This document shows positions 13,806-23,603 of a stretch of 64,000 bases of DNA, piece by piece. The notes beneath the pieces are model-generated. The model was not told where the DNA came from. It did not search any database and worked only from the letters and a program-made list of their open reading frames with translations. The first letter of the stretch is position 1. Each line of letters starts with the position of its first letter. A program made the position numbers and the translations under genes. Origin of the DNA: Levilactobacillus senmaizukei DSM 21775 = NBRC 103853 (GTDB lineage: Bacteria > Bacillota > Bacilli > Lactobacillales > Lactobacillaceae); the NCBI RefSeq assembly GCF_001592085.1, contig NZ_BCWD01000006.1, positions 1 through 64,000 on the forward strand, in the 5' to 3' direction.

Positions 13806-14501
13806 ATGACGGGAACAGTTTTAATCGTCGAGGATGACGCTGCGTTGTTAGATTCATTAACAACGGAGTTGCAATTCGAGGACTACACGGTATTGAATGC
13901 TCGCGATGGTCGAGCGGCGCTTAAAATTTACGAGAGTAATCAGGGACAGCTGGATCTAATTTTATTGGACTGGATGTTGCCAGAACTGGATGGCCTAGGT
14001 GTGTTACGACGAATCCGCAAAAGTGACAATTTACCGGTGATTATGATGACGGCCAGAGACTATGTAGGGGATAAGGTGGCTGGTTTAGATACTGGTGCTG
14101 ACGATTACATCACTAAACCGTTCGATATTGAGGAATTACTAGCTAGAATTCGAGTTGTCTTGCGCCATCAATCTCGGCAACAGGCTGCCGGTAGTCAACT
14201 TCACGTCGGCGATCTGGTGTTAGATATCAGGTCGCGGCAAGTTCTGCGTGACGGTCAATTGATTCAGTTGACCCAGCGAGAGTATGAGCTACTCCTCTGT
14301 CTGATGAAAAATTCCGGACAGACGATGACTCGGGATGAGTTACTTAACAGTGTCTGGGGGGTGGATTTTGAAGGCCAGCCGAATATTGTCGATGTCTATG
14401 TCCGTTATCTCCGAAATAAATTACGGGAAGAACATTTTCAACCACTAATCCATACGGTCCGTGGCGTTGGGTATGTGCTCTCGGCCGAGTATCACGGGTA
14501 A
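13806..14501 (+). CDS. OmpR/PhoB-family response regulator
   Basis: A 231-residue two-component regulator. The receiver domain covers residues 1-118, with the acidic pair in VEDDAALLDS, the phosphoacceptor Asp55 in LLLDWMLPELDG, Thr in MMTARD and Lys in DDYITKPF. The winged-helix DNA-binding domain lies at about 130-228 (LTQREYELLLCLMKNSGQ, VDVYVRYLRNKL and TVRGVGYVL). The ATG at 13806 follows GCAGGGGGATC and gives the standard N terminus. It overlaps the histidine kinase gene by one base. With PAP2 and mprF genes downstream, an envelope-stress role is plausible but inferred. Confidence 0.95.
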   Translation: MTGTVLIVEDDAALLDSLTTELQFEDYTVLNARDGRAALKIYESNQGQLDLILLDWMLPELDGLGVLRRIRKSDNLPVIMMTARDYVGDKVAGLDTGADDYITKPFDIEELLARIRVVLRHQSRQQAAGSQLHVGDLVLDIRSRQVLRDGQLIQLTQREYELLLCLMKNSGQTMTRDELLNSVWGVDFEGQPNIVDVYVRYLRNKLREEHFQPLIHTVRGVGYVLSAEYHG

Positions 14502-15895
14502 TGCGGATGAAAAAGCAAATTGAGAATCATACAACAGCCCAGGAGATTCAGCGTCGCTTTTTGACGATGCTAGTTTTGATGACCTTATTTATGGGGGTGT
14601 CAATCGTTAGCACGGTTGGTTATCAATTGGTCAAGCAGAGTGAACATTCTTCTCAGCAACTTATTCGGAGCTTGCGGCGGTCCTTTATCAATGATCGACC
14701 CGATTGGAATTATTGGCAACGGACTAGCCCGTTAGACACTCGAAATACCTTCGTGCGGGTTTATAAGGAACATGATCGTCGGTCAACGAGTACCTTTTAC
14801 TCGGCGCGGGCGCGACATTTTATTCACCAACATCATTACCCGCTCCCATTCTATCCGTCATTGGATTATACGCCAGGCTATGGGATTACCTACTATCGTG
14901 CAGGTAGTCGGGCGGGATTCTATTCCGAAATCTGGATGAGTTTGACCCCGGTCACAACGATTCTATTTTCAGTCTTAGTGGTGACGGCTGGTGTGGCGAT
15001 TCTGATGATTGGTGTTGGGTGGATTTATGTTCGTCGGACGGCGAATAAAATCACACAGCCGTTAGCCGGCTTGAATACCGCTGCCAAGAAGCAGGCCCAA
15101 GTTCGAACGGTTAAAGCCGCGTTGCCGATCCCGGATCGGCCGCAGGAGGTGACACAGCTAGCCGCGAGCTTCAATGAGTTACTCACAGTGATTAATCAAA
15201 ATGCGGAGCAGGAACGGGCGTTTACCTCTAATGCAGCCCACGAACTGCGAACACCGATTGCCGCTATTCGTGGTCACGTTCGCTTGCTGGAACGGCGGGC
15301 GGCGGGACATCCAGAGATTATTCCGCGGTCGATTCAATTCATTGATGAAGAGTCGATTCGAATGCAGAAGCTAGTTGATAGTTTGCTGACACTGTCCAGA
15401 GCCGATCGCGGCGCCCTGACCTTAACGAGTTTTGATCTAGTCCCGATTATTCATGAGACGATTGAAGAGGAACGGGCAGTTTTACAGCAGCCGATTGAGG
15501 TTCATTTAATGGAAAATGTCATAGTGTTTGGCCATGCGGAGAGTATCCAACAGATTTTGACGGCGCTCCTGGATAATGCTGGTAAGTATTCACCGAAAGA
15601 TCAGCCGATTTCGGTGATCGTAACGGTTAATGACGGTTGGATTGACCTAAGCGTTGCTGACTTAGGGCTGGGCATTGCAGATGCGGATAAACCGCGAATA
15701 TTTGATCGATTCTATCGGGTTGATTCAGCCAGAACTCGTGAGGTTGGCGGAACCGGGTTAGGTTTAGCCATTGTGGCCCAGTTAGTCAAGTTAAATCGTG
15801 CGACCATTCGGGTCATCGATAATCGACCTCAGGGGAGTCGATTCACTGTAAGATTTCAGGCAGGAAATACGAATTCTGAGAATCCTTCAGTCTAA
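14501..15895 (+). CDS. Sensor histidine kinase
   Basis: A 464-residue membrane kinase, partner of the preceding regulator. Hydrophobic spans at about residues 20-44 and 150-178 enclose a roughly 105-residue extracytoplasmic sensor region rich in Tyr, His and Arg. A HAMP-like linker follows, then HisKA with phospho-acceptor His247 in SNAAHELRTPIAAI, and HATPase_c with N box DNAGKYSP, G1 DLGLGIAD and G2 GTGLGLAIV. The sensor region has no recognisable domain. The start ATG overlaps the regulator's stop. A terminator follows. Confidence 0.94.
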   Translation: MRMKKQIENHTTAQEIQRRFLTMLVLMTLFMGVSIVSTVGYQLVKQSEHSSQQLIRSLRRSFINDRPDWNYWQRTSPLDTRNTFVRVYKEHDRRSTSTFYSARARHFIHQHHYPLPFYPSLDYTPGYGITYYRAGSRAGFYSEIWMSLTPVTTILFSVLVVTAGVAILMIGVGWIYVRRTANKITQPLAGLNTAAKKQAQVRTVKAALPIPDRPQEVTQLAASFNELLTVINQNAEQERAFTSNAAHELRTPIAAIRGHVRLLERRAAGHPEIIPRSIQFIDEESIRMQKLVDSLLTLSRADRGALTLTSFDLVPIIHETIEEERAVLQQPIEVHLMENVIVFGHAESIQQILTALLDNAGKYSPKDQPISVIVTVNDGWIDLSVADLGLGIADADKPRIFDRFYRVDSARTREVGGTGLGLAIVAQLVKLNRATIRVIDNRPQGSRFTVRFQAGNTNSENPSV

Positions 15896-15924: not shown

Positions 15925-15972
15925 AGTCCTTGCCTATGATGGAGACATTCCAGCATGGGTAAGGATTTTTTT
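15925..15972 (+). terminator. Terminator after the two-component genes
   Basis: AGTCCTTGCCTATGATG pairs with CAGCATGGGTAAGGATT (imperfect) around a short loop, followed by T7. Confidence 0.8.
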
Positions 15973-16016
15973 GTAGCAACAGTGGTCTAATGATGACCAG
16001 AGAGGTAGGTAGCGTG

Positions 16017-16652
16017 ATGACAGAGGCGCAAGCCAATCAAGAATTAGCCGTGGGTTTTGGGGGATTATTTGGGATTCTAGCCATCTTGATCAAGTTCGGA
16101 TCGGCTAGGCTGGCGGAAGTGGATCGATTGGGTCTAAGCATTTTAAATTCGGGTTTGTTGGGACAACCCGTTCGATGGTGGTCGTGGTTAACGGCAACCG
16201 GGAGTCCCCTGATTATGGGCGGGATAACCGTGGGATTGGGCCTGTCCTTGTGGTACCGGCGCCAGGTGGCTTGGGCTGCGACGATAATCATTGCCTGGGT
16301 AAGTGGTGATGTTCTGATCATGATGCTAAAACATCTAGTGGTTCGCTTGCCATCGGCTCAAAGCACGATGGGCGTTGAGCGGATCGGCTTTCTTAGCAGT
16401 CGGGTGTTTAGTACCACCTTGCTAACCCTGATGGTGGGAACGCTACTTTTTAAAATGTTAAATCAGAGCTGGTTGGTATGGCTACTAGTGGGTCTACTTG
16501 GATTGTGGGTTACCGGTGTCATGCGGGCCAGCATGGGGTTGAATAATTATTTTCCCAGTGATGTTTTGGGAAGTCTTCTGCTAGCAGGCGGCTGGTGGTG
16601 CCAATGCGTGAGCCTGCATGAGCGATTCTGGGTTAAACGCTCAATGGTGTAG
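16017..16652 (+). CDS. PAP2-superfamily-like membrane protein, catalytic residues missing
   Basis: A 211-residue protein with about five or six hydrophobic segments arranged like lipid phosphatases. Family landmarks can be aligned but are degenerate. KHLVVRLP stands where K-x6-R-P is expected, and GFLSSRVFSTTLL stands where G-x-S-F-P-S-G-H-x-x-x-T-T is expected, so the catalytic His is replaced or lost. MRASMGLNNYFPSDVLGS stands where R-x-x-x-G-x-H-Y-x-S-D-V is expected, with the second His replaced. It is therefore probably not a phosphatase, or a diverged one. The ATG at 16017 (or GTG at 16014) follows AGAGAGGTAGG. It lies between a two-component system and mprF. Confidence 0.75.
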   Translation: MTEAQANQELAVGFGGLFGILAILIKFGSARLAEVDRLGLSILNSGLLGQPVRWWSWLTATGSPLIMGGITVGLGLSLWYRRQVAWAATIIIAWVSGDVLIMMLKHLVVRLPSAQSTMGVERIGFLSSRVFSTTLLTLMVGTLLFKMLNQSWLVWLLVGLLGLWVTGVMRASMGLNNYFPSDVLGSLLLAGGWWCQCVSLHERFWVKRSMV

Positions 16653-17215
16653 CTGTTAACGGGGAAGAAGCGTGAGTGATTAGGCAATATTTAACACGGT
16701 GTGATTCTGTGGTGTTTGGATTCTGAAAGTTTCTCAGAAGAATCACTTTTGGAGCCAGTTTTGATGGTGTAGCTAATGGTTTATTATGAATTTAATCAAT
16801 GGGACCTTAATCATTGATTAGAAACAGCACCTTGGGGGAAGCCAAATAATGGTTGCCAGTTTGGAACGGGTTATTTGCTTGAGATTACGAGTTCCAAGAA
16901 TTGAAATTTGTCGTCAGCGTGATGGTGGTCATTGGGGTAAGGGAATAAAAAACGACATTAAGCTAAGATTTGGCGTTAAGTCGACGATCTAGCGGGGAAA
17001 CCTTAATTGTCATGAGAAGTCAGGATGCCATTGATTGGGGAATCAAGACATTGTAGCGGTCAGGATTACTTTCTGGCCGTTTTTTGTTTGACGATGAAAC
17101 GAGTCACTGGTAATTGGTTAAGATAGGTCATTGACAAAACTAGCTAATGGATTATCGGTCTAATTGTGATTTGGATTAATGGTTGGCATAATGAAGGACT
17201 ACGGGGGGGATTATC
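16653..17215 (+). other. 563-bp intergenic region with hairpins
   Basis: No convincing gene. It contains a TTCTGA/TCAGAA hairpin (16730-16749), an AATCAATG/CATTGATT hairpin (16794-16819), a 47-codon reading frame from an ATG at 16849 to 16992 with GGGGGA nine bases upstream (Arg/Lys-rich, no recognisable family), and a terminator at 17056. TTGACA at 17131-17136 could serve the mprF promoter, but no good -10 lies at the right distance. Confidence 0.5.
17056..17085 (+). terminator. Terminator without an obvious upstream gene
   Basis: CGGTCAG (17057-17063) and CTGGCCG (17073-17079) are followed by T6. It is 400 bp beyond the PAP2-like gene, so it may end a small RNA or small gene in this gap. 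Confidence 0.65.
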
Positions 17216-19852
17216 ATGGGGAAACGTCTTTGGGCAGGAATTCAGAAACGGATGGGCTTGATTAAAGGCATTTTTATCTTCTCGATGCTAATTTTTATCA
17301 TTCAAGCAGGGGCGCACGTCGCACATGAAGTCAATGGACATCAGTTACAGGCCGAGTTGAGCAGTCTGAGCTGGGCGAATGGGTTGCTGCTAATAGTGGG
17401 AGGCTTTGTGGCCGTTCTACCGATGTTAATCTATGACTTTACGATCGTTGAGTTTCTCCCGGGAAAATTCTCTCGCGGGTATGTTTTCCGTACCGGGTGG
17501 GTGACGAACACCTTCACCAATTTAGCGGGAATGGGCGGCTTATTAGGGGCTAGCCTGCGAGCCAACTTTTATGCCAAGTCGGCTACTAGAAAACAGGTCG
17601 TCTATGCAATTTCTAAGATTGCCTTGTTTCTCCTGGCAGGCCTGTCGATGGCCTGTTGGGTGGCCTTACTGAGCTTATTTGTGTTTCACGTCGGCATTGC
17701 TTATGAGGGGTACTGGTTCTGGTTATTAGGCGGTGGCTTGTATTTTCCGTGCCTCTTAATCTTTACGCGATTGAATGATGGTGAATTTTTCCAGGATCTT
17801 ACTTGGTCGCGGGAGTGTCGGTTGATTCTCGGCTCGTGCTTGGAATGGGGGAGTTGTGCGCTCTTCTTCCTACTGATTGGCTGGACGCTGGGTCTCCCGA
17901 TTAACCTGGGTGCCGTCTTCCCAATGTTTGTAGTGGCCTCAGTGGCAGGGGTGGTCTCGATGATTCCTGGGGGTCTAGGATCATTTGATGTGTTCATGAT
18001 CATTGGATTGGGATTCATGGGCGTTAGTCGGGCGGATGCCACCGGATGGCTGTTACTATACCGGCTATTTTACTATCTCCTGCCGTTTGGCGTAGGCGTA
18101 GGGTTCTTCATTCACGATGCCGGGCGACGCCTAAATCACTTCCTAAACGGCCTTCCGGTGGCAGCCTTACGACGAGCAGCACAAATTTTCGTGACCGTTT
18201 TTATGTACTTCTCGGGGGTTATGATGCTGCTTTTCGCCACGATTCCGGATGTGGTTCTGGCTAATAAGGTCTACCTTCAACTGGTGCCTTACATGTTTTA
18301 CTTTCTCAGTCAGGTGGATAATATTGTGGTGGCCTTTCTTTTAATTGGATTGGCGCGAGGCGTTGGTGCCCGAGTTAAACGGGCGTTTTGGCCAACCGTC
18401 ATCGTTTTGGCAATCGCCATTGTGAATACTTTGGTTGCGGAAAACTTTCCGGGCGGATTAGTCATCTTACTATGCTTGGTAATGGTTTCGTTAGTCTTTG
18501 CCCGACCGGAACTCTATCGCAGCGGGTTCCATTATTCTTGGGGTGGGCTAACGGTCGACAGTCTCATATTTGTCGGTACATTTTTACTTTATACGGTGCT
18601 GGGAATTTTGACACTACATGGTCACCATCATCACTCCTGGATTCCCCACTCCTGGTGGATTCCATCGACGCAGGTTTGGCTCGATGGGCTCGGAGGTCTC
18701 CTAGTGGCGCTGTTTATTTTGGCGGCTATTTATCGTTACTTGGCCTTTCATCCAGCGAATTGGTTACGACGACCGTTCAATGCGGAACGGGTTCGCCGGT
18801 TGATTAAGAAGTATGGTGGCAATGAAGTCAGTCATTTAGCCTTCTTGAGGGATAAACACACGTACTTTTATCGTGAAAACGGGGAGGACCAGTTGTTAAT
18901 TCTGTTCCGGCGACGGGCGAACAAGCTGATGGTCATGGGCGAACCCATTGGGAATCAAACAAAGGTACGATCGGCTCTAGCAGCATTCATGACCGATGCC
19001 GATGAGGCGGGGATGACCCCCGTCTTCTACGAGGTCAGCGAGGCGTTGACGCTTTCCCTCCACGAGATGGGGTTTGATTTCATTAAGATGGGGGAAGAAG
19101 GCCACGTGGACTTGTCGACCTTTACGTTGGCTGGCAAGCCGCATCGCGGTGAGCGGGCATTGGTCAATAAGTTCACCCGTGAGGGCTTTTATTTTGAACT
19201 CTTACAACCACCGTTAAGCGATGATACCTTTGAACAACTGGCCAAAATTTCTACGGAATGGTTAGGCGATGAAACAGAAAAGGGGTTCTCCATGGGGTTC
19301 TTTGACCGAGATTATCTGAATGAGGCACCGGTAGCGGTGATGAAGGATGCCAACGATCAAATTGTGGCGTTTGCTAATCTCATGCCAACCGGGAAGCATG
19401 ATGTGACTTCAATCGATCTAATGCGGGCGGGCCATGCCGCTCCGTCTGGTATTATGGATGGCCTCTTTGTCCATCTGTTTAGTCTTTGTCGAGAACAGGG
19501 TTATCAGACATTTAATCTGGGGATGACCCCATTGGCTAATGTAGGTGTCTCTCGGTTTAGCTTCATTGAAGAACGGGCGGCACATCTGATCTACGAGTAT
19601 GGGTCGACGTTTTACAGTTTCCAGGGCCTGCGATCGTATAAGGAGAAATACGTCAGCAATTGGCAACCTAAGTACCTGGCCTATCGGCGGCGCCAGTCGT
19701 TGGTCTTTACGATGTTGCAACTGATGCAAACGATCAATCATCCTGCGCGAACGAATCGTTGGTTACCTGGGTGGCTTAACGCCTGGATTGACGATGAGAT
19801 TCGTTGGCAGAATCGTAAAACAGTTGATAAGCCAGTTGAAAAAGGTAATTAA
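17216..19852 (+). CDS. mprF: Phosphatidylglycerol lysyltransferase/flippase MprF
   Basis: An 878-residue protein of standard MprF architecture: about 14 hydrophobic spans in the first 540 residues (flippase plus synthase membrane part) and a cytoplasmic DUF2156 GNAT-like synthase domain at about 550-860. MprF moves lysine or alanine from aminoacyl-tRNA to phosphatidylglycerol and flips the product, lowering negative surface charge and raising resistance to cationic antimicrobial peptides. VSMIPGGLGSFDVFMI is a typical flippase motif, and FNLGMTPLANVG with FQGLRSYKEKYVSNWQPKYL is typical of the synthase. Which amino acid is used is not evident. It follows a two-component system that may control it. 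Confidence 0.95.
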   Translation: MGKRLWAGIQKRMGLIKGIFIFSMLIFIIQAGAHVAHEVNGHQLQAELSSLSWANGLLLIVGGFVAVLPMLIYDFTIVEFLPGKFSRGYVFRTGWVTNTFTNLAGMGGLLGASLRANFYAKSATRKQVVYAISKIALFLLAGLSMACWVALLSLFVFHVGIAYEGYWFWLLGGGLYFPCLLIFTRLNDGEFFQDLTWSRECRLILGSCLEWGSCALFFLLIGWTLGLPINLGAVFPMFVVASVAGVVSMIPGGLGSFDVFMIIGLGFMGVSRADATGWLLLYRLFYYLLPFGVGVGFFIHDAGRRLNHFLNGLPVAALRRAAQIFVTVFMYFSGVMMLLFATIPDVVLANKVYLQLVPYMFYFLSQVDNIVVAFLLIGLARGVGARVKRAFWPTVIVLAIAIVNTLVAENFPGGLVILLCLVMVSLVFARPELYRSGFHYSWGGLTVDSLIFVGTFLLYTVLGILTLHGHHHHSWIPHSWWIPSTQVWLDGLGGLLVALFILAAIYRYLAFHPANWLRRPFNAERVRRLIKKYGGNEVSHLAFLRDKHTYFYRENGEDQLLILFRRRANKLMVMGEPIGNQTKVRSALAAFMTDADEAGMTPVFYEVSEALTLSLHEMGFDFIKMGEEGHVDLSTFTLAGKPHRGERALVNKFTREGFYFELLQPPLSDDTFEQLAKISTEWLGDETEKGFSMGFFDRDYLNEAPVAVMKDANDQIVAFANLMPTGKHDVTSIDLMRAGHAAPSGIMDGLFVHLFSLCREQGYQTFNLGMTPLANVGVSRFSFIEERAAHLIYEYGSTFYSFQGLRSYKEKYVSNWQPKYLAYRRRQSLVFTMLQLMQTINHPARTNRWLPGWLNAWIDDEIRWQNRKTVDKPVEKGN

Positions 19853-21668: not shown

Positions 21669-23603
21669 TTATTCGTGACGCTTCCGACTAGCTCCAAGGC
21701 CTAAGATACTGATGACCATGGCAACACCGGCAACAATCGCGCTGACGGAACTCTTTTCGTTGGTTTGTGGTAAGGTCGTGGCGTTCTTGTTGGTATCTGC
21801 ATGGTTAGCAAGCTTCAACGCATAGTCAGTCTTAGGATTCTTGTTCATGCTGTTGTAAGTCACACGGTTACCTTTTGAGGCGGTTACCTTGGCAGCGGCA
21901 GCACCCTTCTTAGGTGTAGGTGTAGTGACTTTCTTACCCGTAACCTTGGCAGCGGCGCCACCCTTGGTTGGTGTGCCGGTGGTGATGGTTGCACCATCGC
22001 CGCCCGTTACAGGCGTGGTGACGGTGCTACCGCCATTGTCCGTCGGTGTGGTCGTGGTGCCAGTGGTAGGAGGCGTTACGACAATGATGGGGTCCTTGCC
22101 ATTGACGATGGTAAATTCCAAGGAGAAGGCGTATTGGCTGGTCTTGGAATTCAAGGCCCAAACTCTGTAGGTGCCATCGGGAACATCGGCATTAGCGGTT
22201 AAGTTAAAACCAATTGGATTCGTTGGGTCAGCCGTGACCGTGAAGAGGCTACCCTTGCCATTGCTCCAGCCATAAACTTGCATGGGGTCAGTCGTGTCAA
22301 AGGTCACACCATCGGCACCCCGGACACCAGCAACCAGGTCGGTCAATGGATCAAACGTCCGGTTCTTAGGGGTGATGGTAAAGGTTCCACCCGTTAAGAT
22401 TTGATTCATGGTCGTTTGGTTAGAGGTTGGTGATTGTTGACCAGAGGTGAAGTGGTTTTGTTGCGCATCAACGATGATATCTGGCCGCAGGACTGGCAGG
22501 TTGCCAGAGAAGTCATTGTGACTGATATACAGGCTGTTGATGTTGGTCAGGTCGGCTTCGGTGATTGGGCCAGATAGCTTGTTGTCGGCCAGATTGAGTG
22601 AAGTTTCAGGAGCAGCAGGGCCCATATTTTCAAGGCCACCGGTTAATTCGTTGCTGGAAAGGTTAATCCAGTTGAGATCCTTGTAGTTTGTCAGGTTAGG
22701 TAAGTTACCGGTTAAGTGGTAGCCCACGATGTATAGGTAGTTCAACGCCGTATTTTCACCTAGCACGTTGTTCATAAAGGTCGAGGCGTCGACTGGTGAG
22801 GTTGCTTGATCCTTGCTGAGAATGGCGAAATGAGTCAGATTGGGTGCAAAGGAGAAGTTAACGTAGTTGGCTGGGTCAACGTCACCAGTAAAACTGAAGT
22901 ATGTTAAGTTCTTGAAGTATTGTAAGCCTTCAAAGGTCGTTGGCAGGGTGCCGGTGTAACCATCGGTGTATAACATTGAAAGTTGGTCAATGTATTGGTA
23001 CAGGTTGTCATCGGTCACCGTGATACCACGGGCCGGATTAAACGACTTTTGTAAATCGAATTCTACTAAGGACCGTAAGCCGTCGTCCTTTAGCCATTCG
23101 GTTGCATTCACACCTTGGACGGACGAGGCGTCATATGTAGGAGTCTCGGCATCCTTAACGAGCTTGGCTCGTGAAGAGTAGCCAACCTTGCCCAGATTGT
23201 CGTCAACGCTGCCAGATCCATCAGGGTTAGTGACTTTGTGGGTGGTGATGTCACCCGTATGGTGGTTTACGTCGGAACCAGCATCCTGGTCAGTACCTGA
23301 GCCGGTATCCTTGTCGGTACCTGAAGTGACATCCTTATCGGCGCCCGCATTTTTAGGATCATTGGTATTACCAGCACCCAATGTTGTAGTACTGGACTTA
23401 ATATCGTTAGCAGCTGCTGGTGCTTGATTGTCGGTGTTAGGTGTATCGCTGATATTGCCAGTGGTATCGGCAGAGGCCGTGGCACTCATACCGGTGACGC
23501 CTAAGCTTAAGGCTGCAACCGTTACACAAGCGAATACCCAGTTCTTGCCAGCCTTGTAGCTCTTGTAATGTTCCTTCGTATTTAACGTAACTTGCTTTCT
23601 CAT
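21669..23603 (-). CDS. Sortase-anchored leucine-rich-repeat surface protein
   Basis: A 644-residue cell-wall protein. The N terminus has the KxYKxGKxW signal (KSYKAGKNW at about residues 14-22), a hydrophobic core and ASADT as the likely cleavage site. An Asp/Gly/Thr-rich linker (about 75-125) precedes a region of imperfect LRRs (about 190-385, e.g. LPNLTNYKDLNWINLSSNEL). A beta-rich module follows to about 505, then a Thr/Gly/Pro-rich wall-spanning stretch with two AAAKVT-type repeats. The C terminus carries LPQTNE (611-616), a hydrophobic segment and a RKRHE tail, i.e. a sortase A substrate. Likely an adhesion or surface-contact protein; the ligand is unknown. Confidence 0.9.
   Translation of the reverse strand: MRKQVTLNTKEHYKSYKAGKNWVFACVTVAALSLGVTGMSATASADTTGNISDTPNTDNQAPAAANDIKSSTTTLGAGNTNDPKNAGADKDVTSGTDKDTGSGTDQDAGSDVNHHTGDITTHKVTNPDGSGSVDDNLGKVGYSSRAKLVKDAETPTYDASSVQGVNATEWLKDDGLRSLVEFDLQKSFNPARGITVTDDNLYQYIDQLSMLYTDGYTGTLPTTFEGLQYFKNLTYFSFTGDVDPANYVNFSFAPNLTHFAILSKDQATSPVDASTFMNNVLGENTALNYLYIVGYHLTGNLPNLTNYKDLNWINLSSNELTGGLENMGPAAPETSLNLADNKLSGPITEADLTNINSLYISHNDFSGNLPVLRPDIIVDAQQNHFTSGQQSPTSNQTTMNQILTGGTFTITPKNRTFDPLTDLVAGVRGADGVTFDTTDPMQVYGWSNGKGSLFTVTADPTNPIGFNLTANADVPDGTYRVWALNSKTSQYAFSLEFTIVNGKDPIIVVTPPTTGTTTTPTDNGGSTVTTPVTGGDGATITTGTPTKGGAAAKVTGKKVTTPTPKKGAAAAKVTASKGNRVTYNSMNKNPKTDYALKLANHADTNKNATTLPQTNEKSSVSAIVAGVAMVISILGLGASRKRHE

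Follow-up and report, generated by a model that had tools for sequence, protein, structure and literature searches.

A PAP2-fold membrane protein that has lost its catalytic histidines beside a histidine kinase and mprF in Levilactobacillus senmaizukei

A gene located directly behind a two-component system in Levilactobacillus senmaizukei encodes a membrane protein of the PAP2 phosphatase fold in which seven of the ten signature residues have been replaced, including both catalytic histidines. PAP2 phosphatases recycle the lipid carrier for cell-wall synthesis, and hydrolysis by this protein is, judging from its sequence, very unlikely. On balance, we favor the view that it is a pseudophosphatase without catalytic activity, retained to partner the neighboring histidine kinase or MprF in the membrane. 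The gene lies in a 64,000-nucleotide stretch of the L. senmaizukei genome (G000), called the window here, among the following features:

13806..14501, + strand: PhoB/OmpR-type response regulator
14501..15895, + strand: histidine kinase, immediately upstream of the PAP2-like gene
15925..15967, + strand: terminator-like hairpin with a T run, between the kinase and PAP2-like genes, found by folding and absent from the pattern-scan listing
16017..16652, + strand: PAP2-fold membrane protein of 211 aa, predicted to be catalytically dead from its sequence, an ortholog alignment and its predicted fold
16712..16821, + strand: non-coding stretch alike in the window and L. yonginensis, found by sequence comparison
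17216..19852, + strand: mprF (lysylphosphatidylglycerol synthase/flippase)

The first-pass annotation of this DNA had described the gene as a neighbor of a two-component system and mprF, and the order of response regulator, histidine kinase, PAP2-like gene and mprF bears this out. The frame is open from an ATG at 15990 to 16652, and the orthologs back a start at 16017, where the window protein begins MTEAQANQELAVGF and the orthologs begin MTxSQRNQQLALGF. Elsewhere in the window, on the minus strand at 21669-23603, there is a long surface-type protein that has Thr-rich repeats and, close to the C terminus, an LPQTN-like cell-wall anchor.

The descent of the protein was traced in 35 Levilactobacillus genomes, one per species and with the window's own included. 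A first contig scan with the window protein as query returned no relatives, whereas a protein search found matches in all 35 genomes. Judged by identity and locus, intact-length orthologs (34-52% identical) occur in 15 of the 34 other genomes; the nearest, from L. yonginensis (G031), is 52% identical and the other 14 are 34-48% identical. Genome G008 carries a truncated copy, while L. hammesii (G011) and Lactobacillus sp. HBUAS51381 (G022) each encode a divergent PAP2-like protein, PAP2', besides the ortholog. Every other match is either a short fragment or a separate PAP2 paralog (about 26-32% identity). Wherever the contig extends far enough, the window protein and its orthologs share the two-component-system neighborhood.

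Profile searches do not recognize the window protein, as the Pfam scan returned no family up to E=1 and the NCBIfam scan was likewise empty. Against PF01569, whose cut-off is 27.2 bits, the L. yonginensis ortholog scores 33.4 and the window protein falls below; three other PAP2-profile genes in the window's genome exceed the cut-off and all have PSGH. The predicted structure tells more. In a structural alignment, the AlphaFold model, of middling confidence (mean pLDDT 69.8), matched Bacillus subtilis PgpB (5jki) best, with a Z score of 19.4 and an rmsd of 2.7 over 185 aligned residues. The first 17 rows of this comparison are all PAP2-type chains, and unrelated rows begin at Z 6.8. Foldseek alone also ranked 5jki first, at E 2.2e-3, with no match at E 0.001 or better. 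Part of this fold signal comes from the active orthologs, because the alignment behind the model includes them. Taking homology and predicted fold together, we conclude that this is a PAP2-fold protein, in agreement with the first-pass claims that it descends from PAP2 enzymes and has retained their membrane helices.

The PAP2 signature is K(X6)RP, PSGH and SR(X5)H(X3)D, as given in the portion of PMC7413402 available to us. Each of the 15 orthologs keeps all ten of its residues (K, R, P; P, S, G, H; R, H, D), with AR, SR or GR at the start of the third motif. The window protein aligns to them gaplessly across the motif region, and its three motifs are degraded:

16329..16355, + strand: C1 motif with K105 kept, R112P and P113S, from the alignment with 15 orthologs
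16392..16403, + strand: C2 motif, PSGH changed to LSSR (P126L, G128S, H129R; S127 kept), from the alignment
16530..16562, + strand: C3 motif with R172S, R176N and H178Y, D182 kept, from the alignment

C1 now reads K105-x6-P112-S113, with PS in place of RP, and does not match K(X6)RP. C2 has become L126-S127-S128-R129 without an indel and does not match PSGH, and C3 reads S172-x5-Y178-x3-D182, that is AS(X5)Y(X3)D rather than SR(X5)H(X3)D. The lost residues (R112, P113, P126, G128, H129, R172 and H178) take in both histidines and both arginines; K105, S127 and D182 remain. The loss of both catalytic histidines, which the first-pass annotation had proposed, is thus confirmed by the ortholog alignment as H129R and H178Y. 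Its account of damaged motifs also stands, but the R closing the K-x4-R that it took for C1 is R110, a different arginine, also invariant among the orthologs. Because the nucleophile and both arginines are absent, the protein is very unlikely to hydrolyze a substrate, and it is doubtful that it could work as a sensor that grips phosphate.

Losses are not spread evenly over the protein. The window protein keeps 28 of the 38 columns that are invariant in the 15 orthologs, whereas in a leave-one-out control no ortholog differed at more than 4 of its 38-42 such columns. Motif columns account for most of the losses (7 of 10, versus 3 of 28 other invariant columns; Fisher P=8.7e-4). The three non-motif losses, V117, G122 and R176, all lie in or between the motifs, and the other 25 of 28 columns are kept. 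The contrast weakens (7 of 10 motif columns versus 12 of 51 others, P=0.007) when the set is relaxed to columns conserved in 13 or more of the 15 orthologs. We calculated at the codon level how an intact gene would decay neutrally, taking the average across four starting sequences and leaving the absence of stops uncounted; the loss pattern had a joint P of at most 3.4e-4 across 11 durations. The gene has neither a stop nor a frameshift; after 0.15 neutral changes per site, the computed chance of remaining free of stops is 0.05, and it shrinks as decay goes on.

The same unevenness appears in identity to the L. yonginensis ortholog, comparing the window protein with the mean of seven active orthologs. 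The two are similar over residues 3-27 (0.72 versus 0.75), 84-109 (0.50 versus 0.54), 128-147 (0.65 versus 0.64) and 180-210 (0.61 versus 0.68), while segment 110-127 has collapsed (0.28 versus 0.79). The window protein is also more diverged over segments 30-45 (0.25 versus 0.53) and 64-80 (0.53 versus 0.77), and residues 128-147 contain two charged residues compared to a mean of 0.3 in the active orthologs. On this sequence pattern, plain decay appears to fit badly.

Codon tests on the gene itself depend on its place in the tree, which was undecided among the protein trees. A branch test of omega (dN/dS) took in 10 of the 15 orthologs, with G001, G002, G026, G033 and G034 left out. On a tree that makes L. 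yonginensis its sister, the window branch had an omega of 0.257 against a background of 0.126, and omega=1 was rejected (LR 17.6). A tree that places the window beside G012/G013 has a better fit by 10 log units; it gave an omega of 0.58, and omega=1 was not rejected (LR 0.77). Leaving out G012/G013 gave 0.216 (LR 23.5). Outside the active site, omega was 0.23 on the L. yonginensis-sister tree and 0.69 on the G012/G013 tree, and for active-site codons it was 0.52 on both. A history of function followed by neutrality never beat background constraint on the former tree; on the latter, it fitted about as well as background constraint, and a constant raised omega was better than it by 4.7 log units. 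Window-branch dN/dS therefore hinges on tree placement. The kinase has no omega rise on the L. yonginensis-sister tree (0.078 versus 0.069), and in the PAP2 tree no tip is as long as the window's (0.90, versus 0.26 for the kinase). The PAP2 of L. tangyuanensis (G026) lies on a long tree branch. We also tried a regression of PAP2 on kinase divergence as a test and set it aside: the window-L. yonginensis pair is 2.1 sd low and the mean of all 14 window pairs is -3.3 points, but the regression is not diagnostic because the other 13 window pairs lie within 1.2 sd.

The second line of evidence comes from PAP2', for which there are two copies:

L. hammesii, L056 10329-10964: PAP2', between a second kinase and mprF
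Lactobacillus sp. HBUAS51381, L080 2601-3239: PAP2', between a second kinase and mprF

Both copies are without PSGH and without the His and Asp of C3. They are 71% identical to each other, with an omega of 0.146 that rejects omega=1 (LR 92.7); between the same two genomes, the active PAP2 pair gives 0.100 and the second kinase 0.064. By this codon measure PAP2' is clearly under strong purifying selection, and since both copies are dead, the constraint most simply post-dates the loss. Its model has a mean pLDDT of 67.9 and a weak best PDB match, again 5jki (E 0.029).

Like the window protein, PAP2' is a dead PAP2-like protein between a kinase and mprF, but the two are only 27-29% identical. In 34 columns where both depart from seven active sequences, they share the same residue in only two, which favors separate origins; the sequences thus suggest that PAP2' and the window protein are probably independent losses. 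A common dead ancestor was considered because the full protein tree groups both (support 68), but the agreement in 2 of 34 columns speaks against it. With the active-site columns removed, the best tree places the window protein with the active set, and AU tests reject neither topology.

PAP2' itself occurs in L. hammesii and Lactobacillus sp. HBUAS51381 among the 16 of 35 genus genomes that match it; the other 14 matches are ordinary PAP2, the window protein or the G008 fragment. In a draw of 397 genomes from the family, from which Lactobacillus sp. HBUAS51381 is absent, 17 match, comprising 11 genus members and six weak matches outside the genus (E 2.4e-5 or worse). Four of these six (G050, G200, G324 and G358) have C1 and PSGH intact, with no in-frame C3 following in G324, and the other two (G154 and G137) have no PAP2 motif on the stretch examined. 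A literature search on inactive, pseudo- or two-component-linked bacterial PAP2, with subscription papers mostly outside its scope, gave no account of a bacterial pseudo-PAP2 among the titles listed.

What surrounds the orthologs differs from what surrounds the window gene. We checked the flanks directly at nine of the 15 ortholog loci (G002, G006, G007, G011, G012, G015, G026, G030 and G031), and all nine have the order GT2 - PAP2 - YfhO, with mprF further downstream. The regulator and kinase precede this cassette in eight of the nine; the G002 contig ends before them. Between the cassette and mprF, G015 and G030 have a DedA/VTT-type gene, and L. hammesii has a second regulator-kinase-PAP2' set. 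In G001, G033 and G034, PAP2 follows directly behind the kinase after a gap of about 190-200 bases, which is too short for a GT2 gene. At the window locus GT2 and YfhO are absent, with no recognizable remnants in the window gaps, and the genome has homologs elsewhere of GT2 (57% at best), of YfhO (40% at best) and of GtrA-family proteins. L. tongjiangensis (G027) and G032 are without GT2, PAP2 and YfhO, and no PAP2 or GT2 remnants were found in their gaps; their kinases are 76-77% identical to the window's, about as close as that of L. yonginensis. In the sister species L. tangyuanensis, a probable frameshift has left yfhO as two reading frames that overlap (L055 4857-5564 and 5453-7504). Together with the losses at the window locus, these observations indicate that the cassette is eroding in several lineages. 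True decay of PAP2 within the genus is exemplified by G008, a 72% complete genome in which a truncated PAP2 follows the kinase (L067 4119-4307), with stops in every frame beyond it.

The neighbors of the window gene have discordant histories. The regulator and kinase are nearest to their L. yonginensis relatives (88% and 76%), whereas mprF is nearest to L. tangyuanensis (92% protein), as is the upstream ribosomal-gene region (96% DNA), which suggests recombination at this locus. The stretch alike in the window and L. yonginensis (16712..16821) is, from its sequence, a probable relic of a second regulator-kinase copy: 16720-16762 resembles the 3' ends of genes of this kinase family, and such a stretch also precedes mprF in L. 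yonginensis, L. tongjiangensis and G032.

The hairpin between the kinase and the window gene is strong (-25.2 kcal/mol, z -5.8). Hairpins behind other kinase genes range from z -5.6 in L. yonginensis to, behind the second kinase, a weaker -2.9 in L. hammesii and a slight -1.1 in Lactobacillus sp. HBUAS51381. Such a structure is not special to dead genes, because a comparable one follows the kinase in L. yonginensis. The promoter scan reported no promoter-like site between the hairpin and the start codon of the window gene, and its seven sites in the region are near the shuffled mean of 5.9.

Several of these observations would be expected of a decaying relic, a gene left purposeless by the loss of GT2 and YfhO that is drifting and has yet to meet a stop or frameshift. 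The cassette is missing in part here and wholly in L. tongjiangensis and G032, yfhO and PAP2 are broken in L. tangyuanensis and G008, respectively, omega is indistinguishable from 1 on the better-fitting tree, the gene forms the longest PAP2 tip, and the hairpin stands upstream of it. Nevertheless, losses concentrated in motif columns, with 25 of 28 other invariant positions kept, run against drift, as does a stop-free frame whose computed probability falls with longer decay. We consider a relic possible but rather unlikely, and a selected non-catalytic role the likelier explanation of the two. The case for such a role rests on the site pattern and the PAP2' paralog: a pseudoenzyme fits better, given that the losses cluster in the active site and that a dead PAP2' is under purifying selection.

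The remaining alternatives concern chemistry or error. An altered but real enzyme, using other residues for its chemistry or acting on a different substrate, could draw on K105, S127 and D182. However, the C3-histidine nucleophile is absent, no new conserved residue set is recognizable from a single sequence, and PgpB H207A, which lacks this histidine, is totally inactive, whereas the C2 mutant H163A still complements (PMC7413402, in the part available); we judge such an enzyme highly improbable. A substrate trap or lipid sensor, binding lipid (pyro)phosphate uncleaved and reporting its level to the kinase, has a precedent in that phosphate strongly stabilizes PgpB H207A (same portion of PMC7413402), and PDB 8bm3 is, by its title, H207A PgpB with a farnesyl compound. 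Yet in PgpB the phosphate is held by R104, S161 and R201, and the counterparts of its two arginines, R112 and R172, have both been replaced; moreover, the C2 glycine is a serine in the window protein, and G162A or G162D impairs PgpB (PMC7413402, likewise in part). We think this trap improbable. The first-pass proposal of a pseudoenzyme or regulator is the better-fitting reading, but its "lipid-binding" variant is weak if binding is to use the phosphate grip. It had also held that close orthologs with intact motifs would point to recent loss or sequencing error. The motifs are indeed intact in all 15. With ten invariant positions changed and no more than 52% identity to the closest ortholog, however, a sequencing error or single recent hit fails as an explanation. 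No evidence was found in favor of a sequencing or assembly artifact, and with all ten positions replaced by in-frame codon changes and no indel in the motif region, its probability is negligible.

Returning to the pseudophosphatase, its ancestor would have been the PAP2 phosphatase of a GT2-PAP2-YfhO cassette linked to the two-component system and devoted to teichoic-acid-type glycosylation, where it probably recycled the undecaprenyl lipid carrier. In the window lineage, GT2 and YfhO would have vanished from the locus and PAP2 would have shed its phosphate-holding and catalytic residues while its helical fold stayed. The remaining function may be contact with a membrane protein, for which the first and last helices, both conserved, would be largely responsible. 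From the gene order and the conservation of these helices, we suggest that the protein, presumably expressed, inactive in vitro and itself under selection, may now be an accessory to MprF or the neighboring kinase, acting as a scaffold or as a regulator. In favor of this reading as a whole, kinase and PAP2 are also direct neighbors in G001, G033 and G034; the absence of GT2 and YfhO, the absence of the cassette in L. tongjiangensis and G032, and the strong terminator-like hairpin count against it. Still more tentatively, PAP2 proteins beside this two-component system and mprF might have a second, non-enzymatic job, partnering the kinase or MprF in the membrane by way of the first and last helices; this job alone may have outlived catalysis in Levilactobacillus, perhaps twice independently, giving rise to a membrane pseudophosphatase that serves envelope-stress signaling. 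If a dead PAP2 is kept beside a sensor kinase and mprF, then the fold has a signaling or scaffolding use in bacteria, and the locus would be a harmless and workable system for studying how pseudoenzymes arise as operons break up. The constrained PAP2' pair makes the pseudoenzyme question testable now.

Among known systems, the cassette recalls glycosylation of the CsbB-GtcA-YfhO type; lipoteichoic-acid glycosylation in Bacillus involves GT2/YfhO pairs (PMC11898649 and PMC8035078, in the parts available). The orthologs checked likewise stand between GT2 and YfhO, but there the gene between the two encodes a PAP2, and the window locus is without both. With Escherichia coli PgpB and B. subtilis PgpB/YodM, the window protein shares sequence homology and its predicted fold, and its orthologs carry the full signature, whereas it differs in the seven signature residues and is without a Pfam PAP2 match. 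The inactive rhomboids, or iRhoms (PMC6451368, in part), have a different fold, and the protein described here belongs to a bacterial two-component-system locus; what they have in common is the loss of catalytic residues, a membrane fold that is kept and a suspected regulatory role.
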